Shown: positions 4,227 through 21,844 of the stretch, one piece after another | How positions within the stretch are numbered: the stretch's first letter is position 1 | Layout: the number at the start of each line of letters is the position of its first letter | Source: Paraglomus occultum | Lineage: Eukaryota; Glomeromycota; Glomeromycetes; Paraglomerales; Paraglomeraceae | Length of the DNA: 24,550 nt | Direction: 5' to 3' | Assembly (NCBI GenBank): GCA_910592205.1 | Contig: CAJVPJ010000459.1 | Coordinates: 1 to 24,550 of the forward strand | Notes under the pieces: generated by a model | Databases searched by the model: none | Seen by the model: the letters and a program-made list of their open reading frames with translations, nothing else | What the model was told of the DNA's origin: nothing | Position numbers and translations under genes: made by a program

Positions 4227-5243
4227 CTACTCCGTTCGCTGTTTCTTTTTAGGACCTTGTGATTCGTCCAACTCTGTTCGCAATCGTTGATTGTCGGTTT
4301 TCAATAAATCTACTTGCGCTTGCAAATCTTGAATGGCTTGATCTGTTAACAATTTCTCCAGTGTCCACTTCTCAATATTCGCTGCTTCATTCTCCTTAAG
4401 CTGTTGAATATATTGAACAGCTCTCTGGAGAATACTGCCTTTATTTTTCTCACAACCAGGCACAATCTTAGCTAATTCATTGATTCCTTGGTTAATTGTA
4501 TCACGACGACGACGCTCCACCTCTTTATGATTCTCTCGCCGTTGGCGATGCCACTCTTCACTGCCCACGGGAGGCTTTCCAGAAGGAGAGGACTGAGGCG
4601 TTGAACTGGGAGTCAAAGAATTTGGTCGAAGAGGCGATGCCTGTGGAATGGCATGTTGGGGAGTCATTGGTGCTGGCTGGATAGGTAATGGTGCTGGATG
4701 AATAGCAACTGGTTCTTGCTTGGGAGCCAGAGGAGTGCCAGGGTTGTGTTGTGCCACTGATTGAAGTTGAGCCTGGGTCTGTGAAGAATGTTGTTGTTGA
4801 ATAGTCAAGTTACTCTGCGAGGTAGAACTGAAAAAGGAACATGGGAAAGGAATAAATTTATGAGTAATTACATGTATAATACCACTGGTTGTTATAATAT
4901 CATAATACGGTAATCGAGTACCTAGGTTGGATATTTTGAATTTTCTGTTGAGTTTGTGAGTTAACAGTTACAGGTTGAGATTCATCCTTATTCTGGTTAC
5001 CCTGTTGTGCATTTTGAGGGTTTTCTTTGAAAGGGGCTTGAGTTTGCTGTGGATACCGTAGTATAAAACGTGACGAAACCAAATATGGGAAGAGGTCAGT
5101 GAGGTAGAGAGAGATAAACAGGTACAAAAAAGTGTGAATTAGAAAGACCGCGAGTAAAGTTAATCTTAATTGGAAGGGTAAGTTGTAAGGTGAGTGGATG
5201 GGAGTAGTACCATGTTAATAACTGCGGCTTCCTCACTGGTCAT
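4227..5243 (-). CDS. CBF1: CBF1-type bHLH transcription factor (centromere-binding factor 1)
   Basis: Three exons: 5211-5243, 4922-5046 and 4227-4827, giving 252 residues. The start is the ATG at 5243 (MTSEEAAVINM), followed by a GTACTA donor. Residues about 12-140 are a Gln/Pro-rich, disordered activation-type region. A basic helix-loop-helix domain covers about 148-200, with the H-x3-E-x3-R DNA-contact pattern at H153, E157 and R161 (NHKEVERRRR). The segment ANIEKWTL at about 202-209 is characteristic of fungal Cbf1. A coiled-coil/zipper follows to about 240, then a PKKKQR basic tail that may be a nuclear localisation signal. In yeast, Cbf1 dimers bind RTCACGTG at centromeres and at methionine/sulfur-metabolism promoters; the role here is inferred from homology. 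The protein is shorter than yeast Cbf1 because the N-terminal region is short. Confidence 0.93.
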
Positions 5244-5863: not shown

Positions 5864-7900
5864 CTAGTTTACTGTATGTGTTCGCTGACCATTAGGATTG
5901 ATTTTGTTTGTTATTTCCAATAAAGTAGTAAATTCCTCAGTTTGAGGGTTCAAATACTCCCGTCCTACATAAAAAATGAAAACCCATTCGATCAAATAAA
6001 TTTAGAGCAATCTAACAGAGCAACGCGTGTAACTTACTGGCATTTTTACTTAAACTCGGGTCAGACGTCAACTGATCGTGAGAAGGAGCAGTAGGTCTGA
6101 AATTCTTCGGGATGAGCAATCCGGACTCGCTCTGCCCAATAGTAGATCTCACCCATTCTAATTTTTCGTCTATCGCCCTAAAAAGAAGATACGATACAAT
6201 GAACAGCATAATTGAAAATACGAATTGAACGAAGGTTTACTAACTGTCTAACTTCTTCTTCTGGTGGTAGTTGTGGCTGGTGAGAATTGAGACTCAAGTA
6301 CGGATGCAACACTTTTGTAATTGCAAGCCATTCCTCATCATACATGAAATCCATCGGACCCTGAGCATCAGGAATTTCGATAACCTATTCGCAAGTCAAC
6401 TAAAATGAATCTGTGTATATATATGTAAGGTAGTAAAATTGGCAAATTAATTGACTTGTGACCTGTAGGAAATCCCTCCTGGGCAGACATTTATCAAGAG
6501 ACAGAAATCGGGTAACCACGTTTGATTCATTCTCGTTAATTTGTCCATCAGAATTCACAGGATTTTGCATCTCTGAAGCCGAATCGGTATCTCTATTACC
6601 AACTCTATCAATATCATCAATTACATTATTATCGATATCCTCTTCATCATCTAAATCCATGACGATTTCATCTGGATTACTCATAAATTGTATTTTCTTG
6701 TCTTGATGCTTATTGGTTGCAGCTGTGGAATGGGGAACTACAGCCGCAAATTTAACATGTAGATGGGCTGCGAACCAATATTTTGGCTTCAACTTCCATA
6801 ATAATTCCTCACAAGCAGGAGTACCCAAGGTATTATTTTCAATCTATTATGATCATGTGAGTCTTAGTATAGAATGCACCGAATATGGACTGTTGAACAT
6901 ACTCACCTCATTTTTGAAGAACGGTTTCATCCGAACGAGGTTTTGTACATCACCAAATTGTTCAACTCCTCTCGGCCAGTCATGAGACATAAAAATGTCT
7001 AGTTTTTGTCTTATCTGACGATGAATAAATAGCTGAGATTATGCACGACTGTAATGACGTTGAAATATGCACAGCTTACAAATCACGATACCTGAGACAA
7101 TTTAAATACTTCATACTTCCTGACATGGTAAACGCTTCTTAATGTATTATCTGAATATGGGAGCTTTTCATAATGGCCTAAATGAACGGTCCAATGAATA
7201 TGGCAGTCAGCAATAAAGGTTCCTCACGATAGGCAGTCAGCAATAATACAGAATATCGATATAGAAATTGGACTTACCGCATGAATAGTGCTTATCTTTA
7301 TATATGCCTGATATTCCGCCAATACGAACCCCACCAAACCGAACGACGCCTGCGGATCCGAGATAATAAATGTTTTTACAGACCCAGCCCCCGTGATATC
7401 TAAGTGGTAAATAAATTTAATTAATACACCTATTTTAATAACACTTGTAAGCGAACAAAAGTATTATTTCTTACAGTTCCCATAAATAATTACTAGCTTC
7501 ATGGTTTCCGCCAATGAAAAGAGTCGGATATGGTGCCTTTGATTGACCGCTGTAGTATTTATGAAAAGTGCCTAACGATCGATATCTGGCTGGAACTGCC
7601 AAAGAGTCAAGGTCGATAGTATTACGGATTGACTAAAAAAGAGAAACTCCAGTGACAGTGAATATAATTTAATCCATGCATCAAACATTCATTAATCACA
7701 TTACCTGAAAGTCACCGCATATTAGCAACAAGTCTATCTTAATTTTGTCAACTTGCTCTATATGTTTCAGAGTTTTATATATTACGTCGAGCGTACCGTG
7801 ACAACAACCTTCCACAGCTATCTAACAATAATTGAGTTTAATCAGAAGATATAATTACCATTCTTACACTTTTTGCCTTACTATTTTCACTTACTCTCAT
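5864..7900 (-). CDS. DBR1: RNA lariat debranching enzyme DBR1
   Basis: Ten exons: 7895-7900, 7705-7821, 7475-7632, 7278-7399, 7092-7177, 6907-7014, 6463-6843, 6245-6384, 6038-6177 and 5864-5964; 452 residues. The first exon is only ATGAGA, followed by a GTAAGT donor. The enzyme hydrolyses the 2'-5' branch bond of excised intron lariats in the nucleus. Metallophosphoesterase motifs occur in order: GCCHG (C8, H10), CGDFQ (D39), GGNHEAS (N84, H85), MSHDWP (H174) and AHLHVKF (H226, H228). The Cys in the first motif is a Dbr1 hallmark. The DBR1-specific [12 protein letters not shown] stretch precedes the C-terminal domain, which holds NPQTEEF. An acidic Asp/Glu-rich insert lies at about residues 250-270. 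The intron at 6385-6462 has a weak GTCACA donor. The gene is divergent from the lipase. Confidence 0.95.
7202..7246 (+). repeat. Short direct duplication inside DBR1 intron 4
   Basis: The 15-mer GGCAGTCAGCAATAA occurs at 7202-7216 and again at 7232-7246, with a 30-bp period, inside the 100-nt intron 7178-7277. It looks like a local tandem duplication. Confidence 0.7.
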
Positions 7901-13382: not shown

Positions 13383-15257
13383 TTATGGATAAATTCGCTT
13401 TTCATTTGCTCTAGCTGTCAATACTTCAACACCAGTTTCGGTCACAAGAAGCGTGTGCTCGAATTGTGCACTTCGTTTTCCGTCTACAGTGACCGCTGTC
13501 CAGTTATCAGGCCAGAGCTGATCTTTCCAAGTTCCTAAAATACTCTCGCATTGTGAGATGCTAACTAATAGTTAATATGAGACGCAATTATTCGTTACGT
13601 ACCAAGATTTATCATTGGCTCTATCGTGAATACGTGGCCAGGTTTCATGATGCCCACAGCCTTATTTTCTAATGAAGAGGGTACTCATGTTATGATTAAT
13701 TTCATGAAAAAAAAACATAGTAGATAAGCATCAAAGAGCAACCTACTTTTGTAATGAGGAACACTAGGCGCACAATGAAAGAGCCTTCGATGATATCAAA
13801 GTAATAATGGTTATTTCAGAAGTTCTGAGTCTGGCTTTAATGTTAGCCTTCGTTGAGCGAAAATTCTAACCTATGAATTCCATGTCCACAATACGAGCTA
13901 ACGACAGAACAGTTGTTTTCCTTTGCCGTTTTCTCTATAATTGCTCCAAGATTACGATATAAAAAGCCTGGCTTGACTATGAAGACCTGTTAGACAATTA
14001 CTGACAAAAAGTCAAGTTAAAATCGACATGTTTAATTACCATGTTCTATTGCCTTGTCCAGACATTCCTTTGCAGTTCGCAATAACCTCTTGCTATCTTC
14101 GTCTATGTTCCCAACTGGATAGATTTCGTTAAGATCTCCATGAAAACCGTTATGATACAACGTGACATCCACGTTGACGATATCGCCATCCTGAAGTTCG
14201 CGCTGATCGGGTATTCCGTGACAGATAACTGATGAAAGGTGAAACTGATTCAACAAATGTCGGCCGGCAGCTAGGAAAACACGCGCTTCAAACTTACCTT
14301 CATTCACCGAACTAAATTCCGTGAGAGAACCGCCAAAAAAGTTAAAAGACAACTACTTGGCAATGAAATAACTTAAGAGCCGACATTTACGTGCAGACTG
14401 ATTTTGGAAACCCATAATAATTTAGCGGAGATGGATAAGAATCGCGTTCTATCGTAGCTTCATGAACTATCCGATCTAACTCATCCGTAGTGACACCAGG
14501 TTTTATGGCTGCCGCTGCAATATCTAATACTTCGCGAGCAAGCTGTCCGCGCGTAGTATTCATTGAAAGTCGTTACCGTTACAAACTAAGCAATGCCAGA
14601 ATGAAATTTGTAGATAAAGAAAAAAACAAAATGTTAATTAAAGTGGCTAACCTTGCAAACAGTTCGCATGCCCTCAATTTCTTCTTCATTCAGGACTTTT
14701 ATTGTGGTACTGTTACGGACGCTTTGCTCAGATTTCGGTTGGCCTGATTCAAGAAACATTTCGCGTAGGCCGTGAGCAAATGGAGCTTCAACTGCTCTGC
14801 ATTATTCTTGTCAACTTCAAATTATTGAGTTCTTTATGATACAATCTCTCAACCTGTGAAATCGTCTGCATAGTCCGGTCTTATTATGTGCGGTGGTACT
14901 GGTCTTCGAGGTGACAAAGGGTAGACCGCTCGCAACGAACCGGTATAATTATACTTTGGAATATATGTATTTCCTACAAGAGCACGGTCAGTACCGTCTT
15001 AAATTCGCATCAATCACTAAAAACATACCTTTATCGTGAATGGGTTTGTGGGTAGCCTAATGGTTGGGAAAGGACACAGTTAAACAAATTAGTCCCTGAA
15101 CGTTGCTGCCGCGCGAATCACTGCTTACCCAGTTCTTTTTAAAGCACTCTTGTGTACAGAAGTAAGAGCCTGAAATGCCATTCTTCAAGCAAGTAGGGCA
15201 TTGCAATCTCGCGGGATTTCCACAGGCTATCCCCGTACATTTTTGTTCACTGTTCAT
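13383..15257 (-). CDS. MAP1: Methionine aminopeptidase 1 (zinc-finger type)
   Basis: Eleven exons: 15129-15257, 15029-15056, 14854-14973, 14652-14791, 14391-14542, 14298-14311, 14040-14228, 13871-13976, 13747-13784, 13603-13668 and 13383-13534; 377 residues, close to yeast Map1. The enzyme removes the initiator Met from nascent cytosolic proteins at the ribosome. The N-terminal zinc-finger region has C7, C12, C20, C23, C34, C38, H46 and H50, as in eukaryotic type 1 enzymes. The pita-bread catalytic domain has all five dimetal ligands: D215 (NVDVTLY), D226 (HGDLNE), H289 (CGHGIH), E322 (FTIEPM) and E353 (QFEHT), plus the substrate His H198 (VICHGIPD). It lacks the insert of type 2 enzymes. Exon 6 is only 14 nt. 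A CRE octamer sits 34 bp upstream of the ATG. Confidence 0.96.
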
Positions 15258-15450
15258 TGTAATTGCTACAAAATGAAGGAACCGCAAAATTGACGTCACC
15301 CCAGACCTGAACAAAAAAGTATGATTAAATGTTACACAACGCAACAAATTAAAACGAGGCGACTGCAACAAAACCAGACAAAGTGAACATTTTATTATAT
15401 GCGACATAAACAAGAGGATGATGTAGCTGTGTAGAATGAACAACAAAATG
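15258..15450 (-). promoter_or_regulatory. MAP1 upstream region with CRE octamer
   Basis: TGACGTCA at 15291-15298 lies 34 bp upstream of the MAP1 start codon. The region also holds the 30-bp repeat at 15363-15392 that is shared with 24488-24517. This suggests that part of the promoter derives from a dispersed repeat. No TATA box was recognised. Confidence 0.4.
15363..15392 (+). repeat. 30-bp dispersed repeat, identical to 24488-24517
   Basis: All 30 bases, from CTGCAACAAAACCAGACAAA through GTGAACATTT, are identical to 24488-24517 in the same orientation. Similarity stops abruptly on both sides. It is likely a fragment or terminus of a dispersed element. Confidence 0.85.
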
Positions 15451-18295
15451 CAATGAATTCTGCAAAAGACATTGCCAGCTTGAATTCTACTTCAATATTG
15501 CCTTACCGCTTATTTTATGGAGCGGAAAATTGTTCCTTCACATATACCAATTCCATCTTTGAATAGACATAAGACTAGCGATGAATTATCCCAATAAAAC
15601 AGCTGTAACAGGAATCAAATTATAGTAATAATAAGTAATATATAAATCTGGTCGTGTGTGCTATCACGATCTGAGATATGAAGTTCAGCACATGATGAGA
15701 ATTTGACTAAAAAAACAGGATTGGTAATCATCCATGTGTCTCGTATATATGAACAAAAGTTGTCCCAAACTTATACCTATCACCAACAAACTAAATAAAG
15801 AACAGCGTTATTAAATTTACGTAAAATCTTTCTCATTTTGTTTTCAACCAACTTTATCCCCGTCGAATCATAATTGCGGGTTGTCAATTCGAGCGGAGCT
15901 GTGGCGTTTTCCACTTTTATTGAATAAATAACTGTAAGCGACCTTTAAACCAGGCTTTATTTTTACTACTCACAACTTGGTGTCGGCCGGTAGACACTAA
16001 TTCATCCTTCCTCGAGTAAATCCACTATTCTCTTCCGATAAAATTGTTTCGGAAACTTATAAGTCAGAATTATATCAAACATGTTTCCACGTAAGCGAAC
16101 AATTTGTTGTAAGCCAGTGAAATACTCGCGGAACAAGAAGCAAATACTTCTAATTGAGATAGGAATTAGCGGGCAGTTTTACCACTATATTGAATAAATC
16201 ACCAGCGCATAAACATGAACAGTGTGTTTCAAAGCACACTCGAATTCTATAAGTGCAACCTCCATAAGTGTAAGACTTCTTTAAACGCAAAAAAGTAAAC
16301 CAATTTTTTATATGACGTCCATTCCTGAAATTTACACGCAAACTATTAAAATAAACTTCTTTATTTTTTTGGACGTTACTGACGTTTCAATAACGTCGCC
16401 ATGCTTTTAATTAACAGGATATAATCCTTTAATTGTTAATCGTAACTGTAGATTTGTGTAACGTGTTTGTGTTTGTGTTTGACATGCAAGAATCCACTTT
16501 GGAAAACAGCTTGGCTTACAAATAGGGAGAACTCATCAACAACGATTTAGATTTATTTGTTTATTACAGTAATATGATTGGCTGTTTTGTGACATCAGCC
16601 GCCGTTAGTGACCCGTACTAACAAATGGTGAGCGAATGCATACGTAGTAAGAACGACTTAGTTACGGTTTACTGGCCACCTACTTCTCATATAACTTAGC
16701 AAACGTTTGTCGTTTGTAATCCATAATAATAATGATAGCCCGTTCCGATTTGCGCCGCCCCCTGATTGGCGGATTAAAATCATATGATCGGACACGGATG
16801 GAACCAAAACGTCCGTTTGTTGCGAAAAAGGGTTCTAATGGCTTTCGGAAATATGGTTTTTATTGCAACAAATAACAATTAAAGTCTTGGAGTGAAAAGA
16901 AAACAACGGAATAATATTGGAATGGAGGAACACGAAATTATCGGAACGGAACAGAAATGAGCAGGGCTATTGTCACTGTTGGATAATTGTTGAGTTATTA
17001 ACGTGTTCCCTTATTCTAGACTAATTATAGCCATTCAGTATTAGTATATATAATGTTTTGAAAATAAACAAATCTGCAGTAATTTTTAAAGCCGACTATG
17101 TTCGAATTACAGTTGAATATCGGTCAATTTCGATAATATTCTACACAGATATGTCGACGTATGCTTAACTTATTCGTAGTTACAAATCAAATTCCAGCGG
17201 CAATAATAATTGGATTTGTTCATGCCGGTTAGCATTTCCTTTAAAACCGCTCGCTGTATCTTGCTTTTTGGTGAGTATCACTTTGAGATTTTTGCTAATG
17301 TCAATTACAGTCCGTAAAACCCCAAAATTAGAAGGCGCGTTTAATGTTGTCTATATAAGTACAACTTTAATTCAATATTAACTCTATATGATAGTTCATT
17401 ACGATACACATTCTATTAAGTAAATCTTTGGTCATGTTCAATGAACTTCCAATTGAGAATGTTGCCTAATTAGATGGTTGTGATCGTAAGCTTTACATAT
17501 GGAGAATATGAAAGTTGTAAACACGGTTAGACTCTACGAGTGCACTTACTGGGGACGAAATCTACGTGTTCTACTTAATAAATTTATAGAAGGCTTGTTG
17601 TGAGAAGCACGAAAATGTGGATATTTCTCCGAGCATCTCTGCAAAGGGTGCAGAAGTGATGACCCACAGTTGGAATAATTGACATATCAAGGATTGGAAA
17701 GTTGTCGATAAACATCAAATACTAATTCACAATTTACTTTTCTTCACTAATAAACAAAGTGTGTTTGTTTGAGTAGACAATTTATAAAGTTGTTTTCATT
17801 CTCGTCCTACTAATTTATCGATAATCTTAATTAGTGCTTTATGTTAACGTTCTTCTAATGCGTTTTCGTTCCCGAGATTGTTTTTAATATCAGAATGTTG
17901 TGCATATTTAGGGTTTCTCCTCTTCACAATGCTTCCTGTATGGCTATTCCAGGACAGGTACGTGGTAATAGAACTTCTCATATTATTAATTGCATGAAGC
18001 AAAGCTGTTGAGAACTATTTCGTAATTCAATCGAGCATTGACATAGAGCCATTTGTTATTAATCTGGCGCGATCGTCTGACTTATCAATCTGATTTGTTG
18101 AGTGACTGTCGTATTACTGCGGTTTTTTCACGAACTTGGCGTGTAAATAGTTGTGTCACACAATAATAAAGTCACGCTAATGTGTTTGGAGAAACATCGT
18201 CAAGACTTGAGCGTAAACATAATAAGAGACCCGTTTTGATCAATTACTTTGTCACGCGAAGACAGGAATGGGATTATGATTATCAGGCTCTCGTT
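15451..18295. other. Long intergenic region, no gene recognised
   Basis: About 2.8 kb of AT-rich DNA without recognisable domains on either strand. Items seen: the palindrome ATCATATGAT at 16779-16788, a short inverted pair GACGTTA/TAACGTC around 16371-16397, and a locally GC-rich stretch at about 16741-16772. The right end should contain the promoter of the polymerase gamma homologue. A phase-compatible, exon-like segment at 17912-17957 lacks a start codon and was not used. Confidence 0.5.
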
Positions 18296-21200
18296 ATGCT
18301 GACGCACATGTTTATCCCCGATAAAGGCTGGAAGAGGGTATTTCTATGTAATAATAATCGGTTCGCACTTTCGAATAACACCACATTCCGTACATACGTG
18401 AGTTCGTACATACATGATACACCAAAGACCAAGCAAGTGAACGGCGTTGTGAACGAGAGTAAGACAGCACCGAATGAGAGTGAGTGTACATGCAAGACGC
18501 GTGCGTTTAACACTATGTGGATATGTACGCCGCGGTTTAAAAATTTGTTCATTTAACATATTTTATTCCGTTTTTTAACCACCCGAACTGATTTACAATT
18601 TCAGGAGAATTCAACCATTTTGGCATAGAAATGCTTCCGCGTTGGCTTCATGAACAATTATTCAAAAAACGCCCATCCCCGTCTGAAAATTGTCTTAGAA
18701 TAGCATCTGATCATCTCTCGAAGAACAACATATCAATCCAGAAAGACAATACGGCTGCTCCGATCCCTCAATTTAAGCTGCCAAAAATTGTCGGTTCATC
18801 AATTGCTCACCATTTTTACAACATAGCAAATCAACAAGCTGAACCGATCAATCAAATTGCTCGAGAATTTTCAAAGTCTAACATACTCGAGGTTCCAAAA
18901 CGCGGCCAATGGCAATTTAGAGCGGGTTGGACAAAATATTATAATGATAAAAACGAACCAGTCGAATATCCTGAGGAAGAGAGTCTATGTTTTGACGTTG
19001 AAACAATGGTTAGAGACAGTAATTTTCCTGTGATCGCGTGCGCTGTATCTTCAACTGCATGGTATTCATGGGTCTCACCTCGGCTCATAGAATATTTAAA
19101 ATATAGAACTTCGAATGACTCATTTGATCCATCGCGTGGCTGCTCACCCTCTCTTACCGAGCATTTAATTCCGCTTGGTGAAAACGATCGACCGAGAATC
19201 ATAGTTGGACATAGCGTTGGATATGATAGAGCAAGGATTAAGGAAATGTATTCTCTAACGTCTCCCAATATTCATTTTCTCGATACGGCTGCTCTACATA
19301 TTGCAGTGACTGGGTTATGTAAAACCTGTCCGTCATGGATAAAGACCGACAAGATGTGGGAAACTTATGATACCAATCAACTCCTCCATTCAAAAGATTT
19401 TCATGCGCTATACGATCTCAGCCTTATTAGCAGTCTTCGAGAAGTATATTTATGTCATTTTTCTGGTGAGCTAGATAAATTACCACGTAACGTGTTCGTT
19501 GATGGGAGTTTAGATGACCTAATAGTCGAGGATACCTTTCAGGAGCTTATGTCTTATTGTGCTAAGGATGTGACAGTGACTTATAAGGTATTTCAAAAAT
19601 TATTGCCAAAATATCTTATTAAATATCCGCATCCAGCGTCGTTCGTGGGCATGATGCACATATCAGATACATTTTTAACAACGAAGAGTGATTGGAATAA
19701 ATACATAAACAATGCGGACATTATATACAAGGAACAGATGGACACTATAGAAAGGATGTTCCAGCAGTTAGCAGACGAAGCTGTGAAAATTCATCCATCC
19801 CATGCAATGAACGATCCATGGTTGCAACAATTAGATTGGTCGACAGCACCTTCCTCGTCATCTTCGTCGCCATCGTCAACGTTATCAACATTGTCATATT
19901 CATGTTTTTCTCTTTCAAAGAAATCTTCGTTTCTTCCTCGCTGGTACCGTATGCTATATAACCAGTCAACTAACTCTATGAAAATCACTGCCAGGACAAG
20001 GATAGCACCTATACTCCTCCGTCTCAAATGGAAAGGATATCCCGTGTATTACACGAATGCTTTCGGATGGACTTATCGAGTTCCTATTAATGATTCAACA
20101 TTCAAAGAACAAATTTCACCCTGCACTTGGCCGGCCTCATCGCTATCACCTTCTTACGAACCAAAATATGCCAAGGACACAGCTGGGAGATATTATCGTA
20201 TTCCTTATCATGAGGGTTTAAAATGTTCATCATTGCTTTCTCGTTATTTTCTATCTGAAATCGAATCAGGAACACTTTCATCTGACTCATCTACGGCTAA
20301 GTCAATTCTCCGAGCTTATGCTTCGTGTTCCTACTGGAAGATGAACGAAGAGAGAATAAAGTCAACGGTAATAGTTTACGATACGAAAAGTGACGGAATG
20401 AAGTCTGGAATGATACTTCCAATGGTTAAACCACTGGCGACAGTCACTCGTAGACCGAAGGACTATCTTTGGATGTCGGCCAATGAACTACATAAAGAAC
20501 GTATTGGGTCAGAATTAAAAGCTCTAATTCAATCGCCAGATGGATACAAAATTATAGGCGCTAGACTATCATCTCTGGAATTATGGATTTACGGTCTTTT
20601 AGGAGATGCTCAGTTTGGTATACATGGAGCTTCGGCTATGAGTTGGATGTTGTTACAAGGAGGCACATCGGTTACCTCGAATCTGCATACACGAACTGCC
20701 AATATCATGGACATATCTGATAGACAAGCAGAAGTTATCAACAATGCAAGAACGTTTGGAAGTGATGAGACTTTTCTTACGCAGATGATTAAGAAATACA
20801 ATAAGAAGATTAGTGAAGGGAAGGCTAAATCACTAGCAAAGAAATTTATTAAACATACCATTGGTTTAAAGTGGAACGCAGCAAATGCCCAGATGAATGT
20901 TCAGTGGTTAAGCCAACCAAATAGCCAATCATCCACCAAATTACGATCAACACCAAAAGGTTCCGGTCTGGTTTTTGGTGGAAGCGAGAGTTATACTGTC
21001 AATACACTTAATAGCATAATTAGATCTTCCGAGCTGTGTACACCATTTTTAGGTTCCTGCCCCACAGAAGCATTGAATCATTCATGCGTGAAAAAGGATC
21101 ACGTGTCATTACGTCTAAACTGGATAATCCAGTCATCATCTGTTGATTATATTCATTTAATGCTTGTCGCTATGAAGTACTTAATAGATACATATGATAT

Positions 21201-21844
21201 CAAAGCAAGATTTATGCTGTTATCACAGGATGAATTGAAGTATCTTGTTAAAGAAGAAGACAGTTATAGAGCAGCATTAGCGTTACAAGTGAGCCATTTG
21301 TGGACAAGGGCATTATTTAGCTATATGCTTGGAATTGAAGACTTACCTCTGGTATGAATATATTGTTTACTTTGGCGTGTTATTTAGCTTTCAATATGAT
21401 CAAAATTCACTTTAACGTTTTTGTCCATTTTTACAGAATGTAGCATTTTTGTCAAGCATAGATTTTGACAGCGTTCTTCGCAATGACATTGGTGCAAATT
21501 GCAGCACACTCTCATACGTACCAGTCAACACACCAAATGGAATTAGTGTATCCATTCATGACATTCTACAGCATCAAACATCTCTTGGGAGATCCGTTCA
21601 TAGACAAAATAATATTTCGGCTGACCCAGACATAATTGCACAAGATGAAAGCCTATTACATCCGAAAAAGCCATTGGTGAATGACTTGGTTTTGAAGATA
21701 CAGTCACTGTCTTCTGCAAGAGAGATTGAAACTTTTCTGAATCAGCACAATATAAATAAGAAGGCCAATAAACATGCACCAGCTTTCATAAATATTGCAC
21801 CACTTGTGACGAAAAACTTAAACTGTAATTTTCTAACTAGCTAA
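18296..21844 (+). CDS. MIP1: Mitochondrial DNA polymerase gamma homologue with altered polymerase active site
   Basis: Three exons: 18296-18479, 18605-21351 and 21437-21844; 1112 residues. The start is inferred. Conserved residues (FNHFGIEMLPRWLHEQLF) run upstream of the ATG at 18631. A GTGAGT donor at 18480 and a TTTCAG acceptor restore the frame to an exon beginning MLTHMF, whose basic, Ser/Asn-rich sequence suits a mitochondrial presequence. The 3'-5' exonuclease is complete: Exo I FDVET (D192, E194), Exo II GHSVGYDRAR (D269), Exo III YCAKDVT (D383). A Ser-rich spacer at about 478-495 follows. The family-A polymerase domain is recognisable throughout (TRR...WMSANE, RIGSELKALIQSPDGY, NWIIQSSSVDYIHLMLVAMK, YRAALALQ). 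However, motif A reads GARLSSLELW, motif B DRQAEVINNARTFG and motif C SQDE, so key catalytic residues are changed. It could be a diverged paralogue acting as an exonuclease or accessory factor. Confidence 0.93.

Follow-up and report, generated by a model that had tools for sequence, protein, structure and literature searches.

The question raised by the locus considered here is why a fungus should hold, beside a complete gene for the mitochondrial DNA polymerase Pol gamma, a second gene of the same family in which the polymerase active site is broken and the exonuclease active site is intact. The locus lies in the window, by which we mean the whole stretch of DNA that was analysed, namely the complete contig C459 (24,550 bp) of an assembly of 1408 contigs and 32.3 Mb from Paraglomus occultum, an arbuscular mycorrhizal fungus that lives as a root symbiont. 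Our answer, to which as a whole we give a probability of roughly 0.7, is that the gene encodes an exonuclease-only Pol gamma paralogue, arisen by duplication within Glomeromycotina, that would serve as a dedicated mitochondrial 3'-5' exonuclease. The motifs and the constraint on each domain support this reading, which the first-pass annotation of the DNA had put forward in the form of an exonuclease-only pseudo-polymerase. Judged from these sequence features, the polymerase is very probably dead and the exonuclease is likely to be active.

The window protein (P0001) is evidently related to Pol gamma over its length. In a phmmer search it matches the solved DNA polymerase gamma 9c51_A over two collinear stretches (E 1.1e-148), its exonuclease domain precedes the family A palm and fingers domain in the order that is collinear with Pol gamma, and in the tree it groups within a 24-row set of Glomeromycotina Pol gamma with support 100/100. 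It shares with canonical fungal Pol gamma (Mip1; PF18136 plus PF00476) the architecture, the exonuclease residues, the spacer and the C-terminal extension, with 41-45% identity among the best matches, the own canonical copy of P. occultum included. By contrast with the canonical enzyme, its motifs A, B and C are altered, its orienter-module Gln and Arg are gone, and its DNA_pol_A (PF00476) score of 23.5 bits lies under the cut-off of 34.3 bits, the canonical paralogue having 71.9 bits. The mitochondrial exonuclease domain (PF18136) is found in it with 283 bits.

The active-site residues were read in an alignment of 250 sequences, which comprises the window protein and the proteins listed in three homologue searches (the best 120 of 392, of 400 and of 340 matches); statements below on the matches listed refer to these searches. 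For the polymerase we use the residue numbers of human Pol gamma, which we take to be D890, E895, R943, K947, Y951 and Y955. The sites in the window are the following.

18769..19614, plus strand: 3'-5' exonuclease domain PF18136 (286 bits in the search of the own genome)
18994..19002, plus strand: exo I Asp122 and Glu124 (FDVET), intact (Asp in 243/250 and Glu in 243/250 sequences)
19225..19227, plus strand: exo II Asp199 (GHSVGYDRAR), intact (Asp in 248/250, gap in 2)
19312..19338, plus strand: orienter-module loop, GLCKTCPSW for GLCxQQRPxW, with the canonical Gln and Arg gone and one residue shorter
19555..19569, plus strand: exo III Tyr309 and Asp313 (YCAKD), intact (motif reading and alignment)
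20557..20586, plus strand: motif A, GARLSSLELW, with the catalytic Asp (D890) replaced by Arg (codon AGA at 20563-20565)
20716..20760, plus strand: motif B, SDRQAEVINNARTFG, with R943D, K947E, Y951N and Y955F (motif reading and alignment)
21226..21234, plus strand: motif C, QDE in place of HDE, the His gone and the Asp retained (motif reading and alignment)

These readings agree exactly with the motif statements of the first-pass annotation, which had given GARLSSLELW with AGA at 20563, the changes in motif B, QDE at motif C and the presence of the exo I, II and III residues, exo III reading YCAKDV. The same combination of an intact exonuclease site and a broken polymerase site is present in two other species, an outcome in favour of the first-pass annotation, which had named orthologues from related fungi as a check. 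Ambispora gerdemannii P0011 and A. leptoticha P0018 retain, as the window protein does, all 5 of the 5 exonuclease catalytic residues, and carry the polymerase changes D890K, K947R and Y955F. At the motif A Asp position 247 of the 250 sequences have Asp, with Arg in the window protein and Lys in P0011 and P0018; the loss of the motif B Lys and the presence of Phe for Tyr955 are, among the 250, also confined to these three proteins, which are called pol-dead in the following. The three do not agree in every residue: in P0011 and P0018 the motif C His is replaced by Tyr and the Glu by Asn or Thr, with the motif B Arg and Tyr951 retained, whereas the window copy has lost the motif B Arg, Tyr951 and the motif C His and has retained the motif C Glu. 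The PF00476 score is below the threshold of 34.3 bits in all three (23.5, 21.8 and 21.5 bits), with PF18136 at 283-305 bits. A profile search with the window protein, P0011 and P0018 together gave no further pol-dead orthologue among the best 120 of 400 matches.

Catalysis by family A polymerases uses two Asp residues as metal ligands. It could be argued that the pol-dead proteins are working polymerases with an unusual metal site, as the motif C Asp and the motif A Glu (the equivalent of E895) are retained in all three. However, all three have a basic residue at the position of the motif A Asp and have lost the motif B Lys, and between the two Ambispora species their polymerase domain has changed 2.3-4.8 times faster than that of the canonical copies (distance 0.305 versus 0.132 and 0.064). 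This explanation is very improbable and we rejected it.

The constraint on the two domains was compared through protein-level distances on a fixed topology, in place of the ratio of nonsynonymous to synonymous substitution rates (dN/dS), and it differs between the domains in the direction that the first-pass annotation had led one to expect. The ratio of exonuclease to polymerase distance is 1.35-2.12 in 8 canonical pairs and 0.45 and 0.50 in the 2 pol-dead pairs. Between the two Ambispora species the exonuclease domain of the pol-dead copy is 86.4% identical, as compared with 86.8% and 81.3% for the canonical copies, while its polymerase domain is 81.8% identical, as compared with 94.7% and 89.9%; between Paraglomus and Ambispora the polymerase identity is 42.1% for the pol-dead copies versus 74.5% for the canonical ones. 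When residues kept in at least 90% of 25 canonical rows are taken as conserved and gaps are counted as losses, the window copy has lost 67/174 of them in the polymerase domain and 7/63 in the exonuclease domain (Fisher p 3e-5), and the Ambispora pair has lost 76/174 and 4/63, respectively (Fisher p 9e-9). The fully invariant positions are retained in all three pol-dead proteins at 34/39 in the exonuclease domain and at 51/112 in the polymerase domain, where 3 of the 61 that are not retained are merely a gap in P0018. By these protein-level measures the polymerase domain of the pol-dead copies is relaxed, not free. Note also that in the comparison with the canonical paralogue the second codon position has diverged less than the third in every domain, a test that says little because third positions are close to saturation, with differences at 58-67% of codons.

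The large number of conserved polymerase positions lost (67/174) is also what would speak for a decaying pseudogene. Against this explanation are the concentration of the losses in one domain, the occurrence in two Ambispora species of copies with an open frame that are 86% identical in the exonuclease domain, and the structure of the gene itself. The main frame, which had been described as open for more than 900 codons, runs for 921 codons from stop to stop (18592-21357, plus strand), and under a simple model of base composition the probability of finding no stop in 915 codons is about 3e-27. In addition, a splice that preserves the reading frame joins it to a C-terminal exon that is conserved. 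The gene is laid out as follows.

18296..18458, plus strand: exon 1, favoured candidate, with the start Met and the putative presequence MLTHMFIPDKGWKRVFLCNNNRFALSNNTTFRTYVSSYIH..., one among several in-frame combinations of start and donor
18459..18604, plus strand: intron before exon 2, given the favoured exon 1; the acceptor AG at 18603-18604 is the firmer end
18605..21351, plus strand: exon 2, most of the Pol gamma paralogue, beginning EFNHFGIEMLPRWLHEQLF (open frame and full-length Pol gamma homology)
21352..21436, plus strand: intron, GT...AG; the 21351-21437 join gives EDLPL-NVAFLSSIDFDSV, like DLPLSVAFFSSIDIDHV of the canonical copy
21437..21844, plus strand: exon 3 up to the stop codon, restoring the conserved C-terminal extension

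The gene is hence longer than the frame that was first read, as the 3' exon is added and the frame also runs upstream of its first Met. Within exon 3, 21440-21751 matches residues 993-1099 of Rhizophagus P0155. At the other end, the frame and the homology continue back to the acceptor at 18603-18604, and therefore the first exon must lie further upstream. In-frame combinations for it were searched in 16500-18560, where other starts are at 17222, 17298 and 17895 and other donors at 18479 and elsewhere. The candidate listed was picked for its nearness to exon 2 and for the composition of its leader, which has a net positive charge with 5 Lys plus Arg and 1 Asp plus Glu in 40 residues, versus 7 and 2 in the canonical copy; with it the protein has 1105 residues. 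As the first-pass annotation had held, ordinary decay is very improbable, with the pattern shared by two other species and the losses concentrated in the polymerase domain, and we rejected the pseudogene. It is observed separately that the stretch at 20872-20967, which precedes GGSESY (WNAANAQMNVQWLSQPNSQSSTKLRSTPKGSG), is longer than in the aligned relatives and may represent either a genuine insertion or an intron that keeps the frame.

The second, active Pol gamma that the first-pass annotation had suggested as a possible partner of the window copy has a counterpart in the same genome, in the form of a canonical copy. It lies on a contig of 63,036 bp (C34), encodes a protein of 1079 residues (P0007) with GADVDSEELW, NYGRIYG and HDE, and retains its own exonuclease residues. 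Searches of the P. occultum assembly with PF00476, PF18136, P0001 and Rhizophagus P0155 match the window and C34 only, giving no third Pol gamma locus. Both Ambispora species likewise combine the pol-dead copy with others whose catalytic residues are intact, namely P0002 and P0003 beside P0011 in A. gerdemannii and P0004 beside P0018 in A. leptoticha. Assembly or sequencing error, in whose favour it can be said that the P. occultum data are a single draft assembly, would have to account for the absence of canonical residues at 67 of the 174 conserved polymerase positions, for the like pattern in two other species and for the presence of the canonical copy on another contig of the assembly; its probability is negligible, and it too was rejected. 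Two side observations concern the intact copies: motif B of A. gerdemannii P0003 reads NYSRIYG, where the exonuclease-dead proteins described below have NYSRLYG, and Entrophospora candida has a second, diverged Pol gamma (P0012) with intact exonuclease and motifs A and B, and with YDE for HDE at motif C.

The pathway that we propose for the pol-dead copies is as follows. A duplicated copy would have lost the motif A metal-binding Asp, replaced by the basic Arg or Lys, together with the Lys that binds the deoxynucleoside triphosphate and Tyr955, while the constraint on its exonuclease site remained close to that in functional polymerases. The protein would enter the mitochondria and would bind 3' ends through those parts of the polymerase cleft that it has kept; with neither extension nor competing synthesis, an end so bound could only be excised, and replication would be left to the canonical copy, whose gene lies on another contig. 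The most likely role would then be the trimming and clearing of broken, linear or damaged mitochondrial DNA (mtDNA), which we put at slightly less than even odds as the main role of the protein. The clearance role is favoured because of precedents in yeast Mip1 and mammalian POLG, and by analogy with them it may apply here. According to a passage of PMC11894172, in mip1 exo- yeast the loss of mtDNA induced by damage is restored by Mip1 lacking its last 263 residues, or by Mip1 with G651S or H734Y, and the effect of the truncation disappears when the exonuclease site is mutated. These constructs resemble the window copy in that the exonuclease is retained and polymerisation is deficient or compromised, and differ from it in being made in the laboratory, whereas the window copy is a natural gene with catalytic substitutions. 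In mammals, as stated in an excerpt of PMC6021392, the rapid degradation of linear mtDNA fragments requires the exonuclease of POLG.

The nearest functional analogue, by this kind of comparison, is POLIB of Trypanosoma brucei, a mitochondrial family A enzyme. In the part of PMC12068568 consulted, its exonuclease is called dominant (in the title of Delzell et al. 2022, as cited there) and its polymerase is given as less robust than those of its paralogues; POLIB belongs to another family A branch, its exonuclease domain is inserted in the thumb, unlike the N-terminal domain of Pol gamma and of the window copy, and its polymerase is weak rather than shown to be absent. POLIB also bears on another possible role, that of an extrinsic proofreader which would remove mismatched 3' ends in trans at the replisome, beside the canonical Pol gamma. 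For this role it can be said that the exonuclease site and many residues of the cleft are retained, and that in the same excerpt POLIB is essential for the replication of kinetoplast DNA with its exonuclease suggested to be dominant. However, such a proofreader is not obviously needed where the canonical copy has exonuclease residues of its own, as in P. occultum, and we regard this role as unlikely. The conserved inactivated polymerases met so far, in the archaeal B-family polymerases and in the module of Pol epsilon (PMC2527604 and PMC2669801), are of family B and non-mitochondrial, while the window copy is a family A Pol gamma; the title on Pol epsilon, moreover, names an inactivated polymerase-exonuclease module, whereas the exonuclease residues of the window copy are intact. 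No earlier report of such a Pol gamma copy was found in open-licence PubMed Central (PMC) full text, which does not prove its absence.

We now turn to the phylogeny. The three pol-dead copies form one clade with support 100/99 in both the 26-row and the 35-row tree. The approximately unbiased (AU) test rejects the pairing of the window copy with the canonical copy of P. occultum (p 0.009 and 0.0003 in two tests) and the pairing of the Ambispora pol-dead copies with the Ambispora canonical ones (p 0.020 and 0.0145), while a single clade of all canonical Glomeromycotina copies is not rejected (p 0.192 and 0.235); therefore the duplication may be as old as Glomeromycotina or younger. Among the 40 canonical-conserved positions changed in both pol-dead lineages, with Ambispora counted where its two copies agree, the same new residue is found at 14, and in the small controls against the exonuclease-dead clade described next it is found at 0/8 and 0/4. 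For the place of Paraglomus itself, P. occultum is placed earliest in a passage of PMC9453076, a study other than PMC11134847.

A second divergent clade surfaced unexpectedly in the search with a Funneliformis Pol gamma, with the exonuclease apparently dead and the polymerase intact. Its six proteins, five of them from Glomerales and Diversisporales, form one clade with support 100/100 and are the following.

Rhizophagus irregularis P0155 (12 member sequences), R. clarus P0158 and Glomus cerebriforme P0157: exonuclease-dead copies
Diversispora epigaea P0156, D. eburnea P0166, and P0160: exonuclease-dead copies

In these proteins the exo I DxE is changed to NxK, SxK or VxK, with Lys for Glu in 6/6; the exo II Asp is retained, the exo III Tyr is replaced in 6/6 and the exo III Asp in 5/6. 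The polymerase motifs are intact, with HDD for HDE at motif C. A canonical copy is also present in R. irregularis, R. clarus and G. cerebriforme. In Diversispora, the exonuclease-dead copy is the only one among the matches listed; if the genus is truly without a canonical copy, the replication of its mtDNA would lack intrinsic proofreading. Among the matches listed, no half-enzyme of either kind is found in Funneliformis, Gigasporales or Entrophospora. The idea that a pol-dead and an exonuclease-dead subunit together form a split polymerase was rejected, as no named species among the matches listed has both.

Like the window copy, the exonuclease-dead paralogues are a second Pol gamma of the same fungal phylum in which one activity is apparently lost; unlike it, they have lost the opposite activity and their dead domain is not relaxed relative to the canonical one. 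An acceleration of that domain was considered and failed, since the ratio of exonuclease to polymerase distance in 3 exonuclease-dead pairs is 1.28-1.80, versus 1.35-2.12 in the canonical pairs; the losses of conserved residues are 8/63 in the exonuclease domain and 21/174 in the polymerase domain (p 1.0). That a dead domain can be kept at canonical relative rates, perhaps for structural reasons, also favours the view that the pol-dead protein is a non-catalytic DNA-binding or structural partner, which holds 3' ends or pairs with the canonical polymerase and for which neither site matters, as does the constraint still present on the dead polymerase domain. This view is at odds with the retention of the exonuclease catalytic residues at 5/5 in 3/3 pol-dead proteins and with an exonuclease domain that evolves about as the canonical one does between the Ambispora species, and we consider it quite improbable.

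Whether the pol-dead and the exonuclease-dead copies form one clade is neither supported nor rejected by the AU test (p 0.38). It is conceivable, and we offer it as a doubtful suggestion, that a single duplication near the root of Glomeromycotina gave a spare copy which lost the polymerase in one deep branch, with Paraglomus and Ambispora, and the proofreading exonuclease in the other, with Rhizophagus, Glomus and Diversispora. Against it, the two groups have no derived residue in common (the 0/8 and 0/4 above), and Funneliformis, Gigasporales and Entrophospora show no half-enzyme among the matches listed; an origin by two independent duplications is no less likely.

The orienter module offers a further comparison. 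Its Gln232 and Arg233 are invariant in the 25 canonical rows and lost in 3/3 pol-dead proteins, being two of the five exonuclease-domain invariants that these proteins fail to keep. In the exonuclease-dead clade the Gln is replaced by Leu in 6/6, and the Arg by Lys in 4/6 and retained in 2. The two residues align with the Gln and Arg of GLSSFQRSLW in the human enzyme. The module is tied to polymerisation in the portion of PMC3314619 consulted, and the human loop variants L304R, R309H/L and W312R are named in an extract of PMC4391263, where the neighbouring mutation S305R is described as weakening the affinity for DNA 10-fold, with a 4-fold loss in correct incorporation and a loss of about 3-fold in excision.

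Several points weigh against the exonuclease-only reading and should be set beside it. The orienter loop is not purely polymerase-linked, because S305R slows excision too, in the extract just cited. The polymerase domain does something, since it is still constrained (51/112 invariants; 81.8% identity between the Ambispora species), and the pol-dead protein may have a role other than that of an exonuclease. Between Paraglomus and Ambispora the exonuclease identity is 47.6% in the pol-dead copies versus 58.2% in the canonical ones. The monophyly of the pol-dead copies leans on long branches, for which the tree program warns of attraction: the exonuclease domain alone supports the clade at 71/86, the window copy taken without the Ambispora pol-dead copies falls at the base of Glomeromycotina (support of the next branch 36), and the latter taken without the window copy fall beside Cetraspora and Dentiscutata (support 69). 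These long branches make the depth of the pol-dead clade uncertain. As for the gene, exon 1 and any presequence are guesses, candidates among several, and the window protein is absent among the annotated proteins listed in the three homologue searches. Finally, a further Pol gamma copy may be missing from the 32.3-Mb assembly, which is smaller than the published Paraglomus assemblies of 49 and 44 Mb given in a passage of PMC9453076.

The window is apparently a nuclear contig, and the neighbours of the gene look like ordinary nuclear genes. In 4 of the 7 frames scanned, Pfam matches identify these gene pieces.

4227-4808, minus strand: HLH piece (Pfam)
6400-6843, minus strand: piece with the DBR1 C-terminal domain (Pfam)
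14032-14352, minus strand: peptidase M24 piece (Pfam)
15057-15446, minus strand: zf-C6H2 piece (Pfam)

The last two are probably parts of a single methionine aminopeptidase 1 gene. An open frame at 1428-1739 on the plus strand resembles a retroelement integrase core by eye and has no Pfam match at E 0.01.

Proofreading and the destruction of damaged mtDNA are both tasks of the Pol gamma exonuclease, and since a single protein carries out all of this the two functions are difficult to tell apart. Judged from the residues retained and lost, evolution appears to have separated the polymerase and exonuclease activities, with a natural exonuclease-only Pol gamma in one set of lineages and, in related lineages, a Pol gamma without exonuclease residues. 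On the doubtful reading of a single duplication given above, a full Pol gamma and a half-enzyme would serve the mitochondria together in several of these fungi, the half-enzyme being a dedicated DNA eraser or a non-proofreading writer depending on the branch; among the matches listed, no named species has both half-enzymes. The residues that couple polymerisation to excision would become testable by comparison of the half-enzymes, and it is noted that both kinds lack the orienter Gln, a residue that is otherwise invariant (lost in 3/3 pol-dead and 6/6 exonuclease-dead proteins). Arbuscular mycorrhizal fungi are coenocytic and hard to manipulate. For these fungi the gene described here would provide a concrete candidate for the turnover of mtDNA or, as a speculation, for the sorting of mixed mitochondrial genomes.

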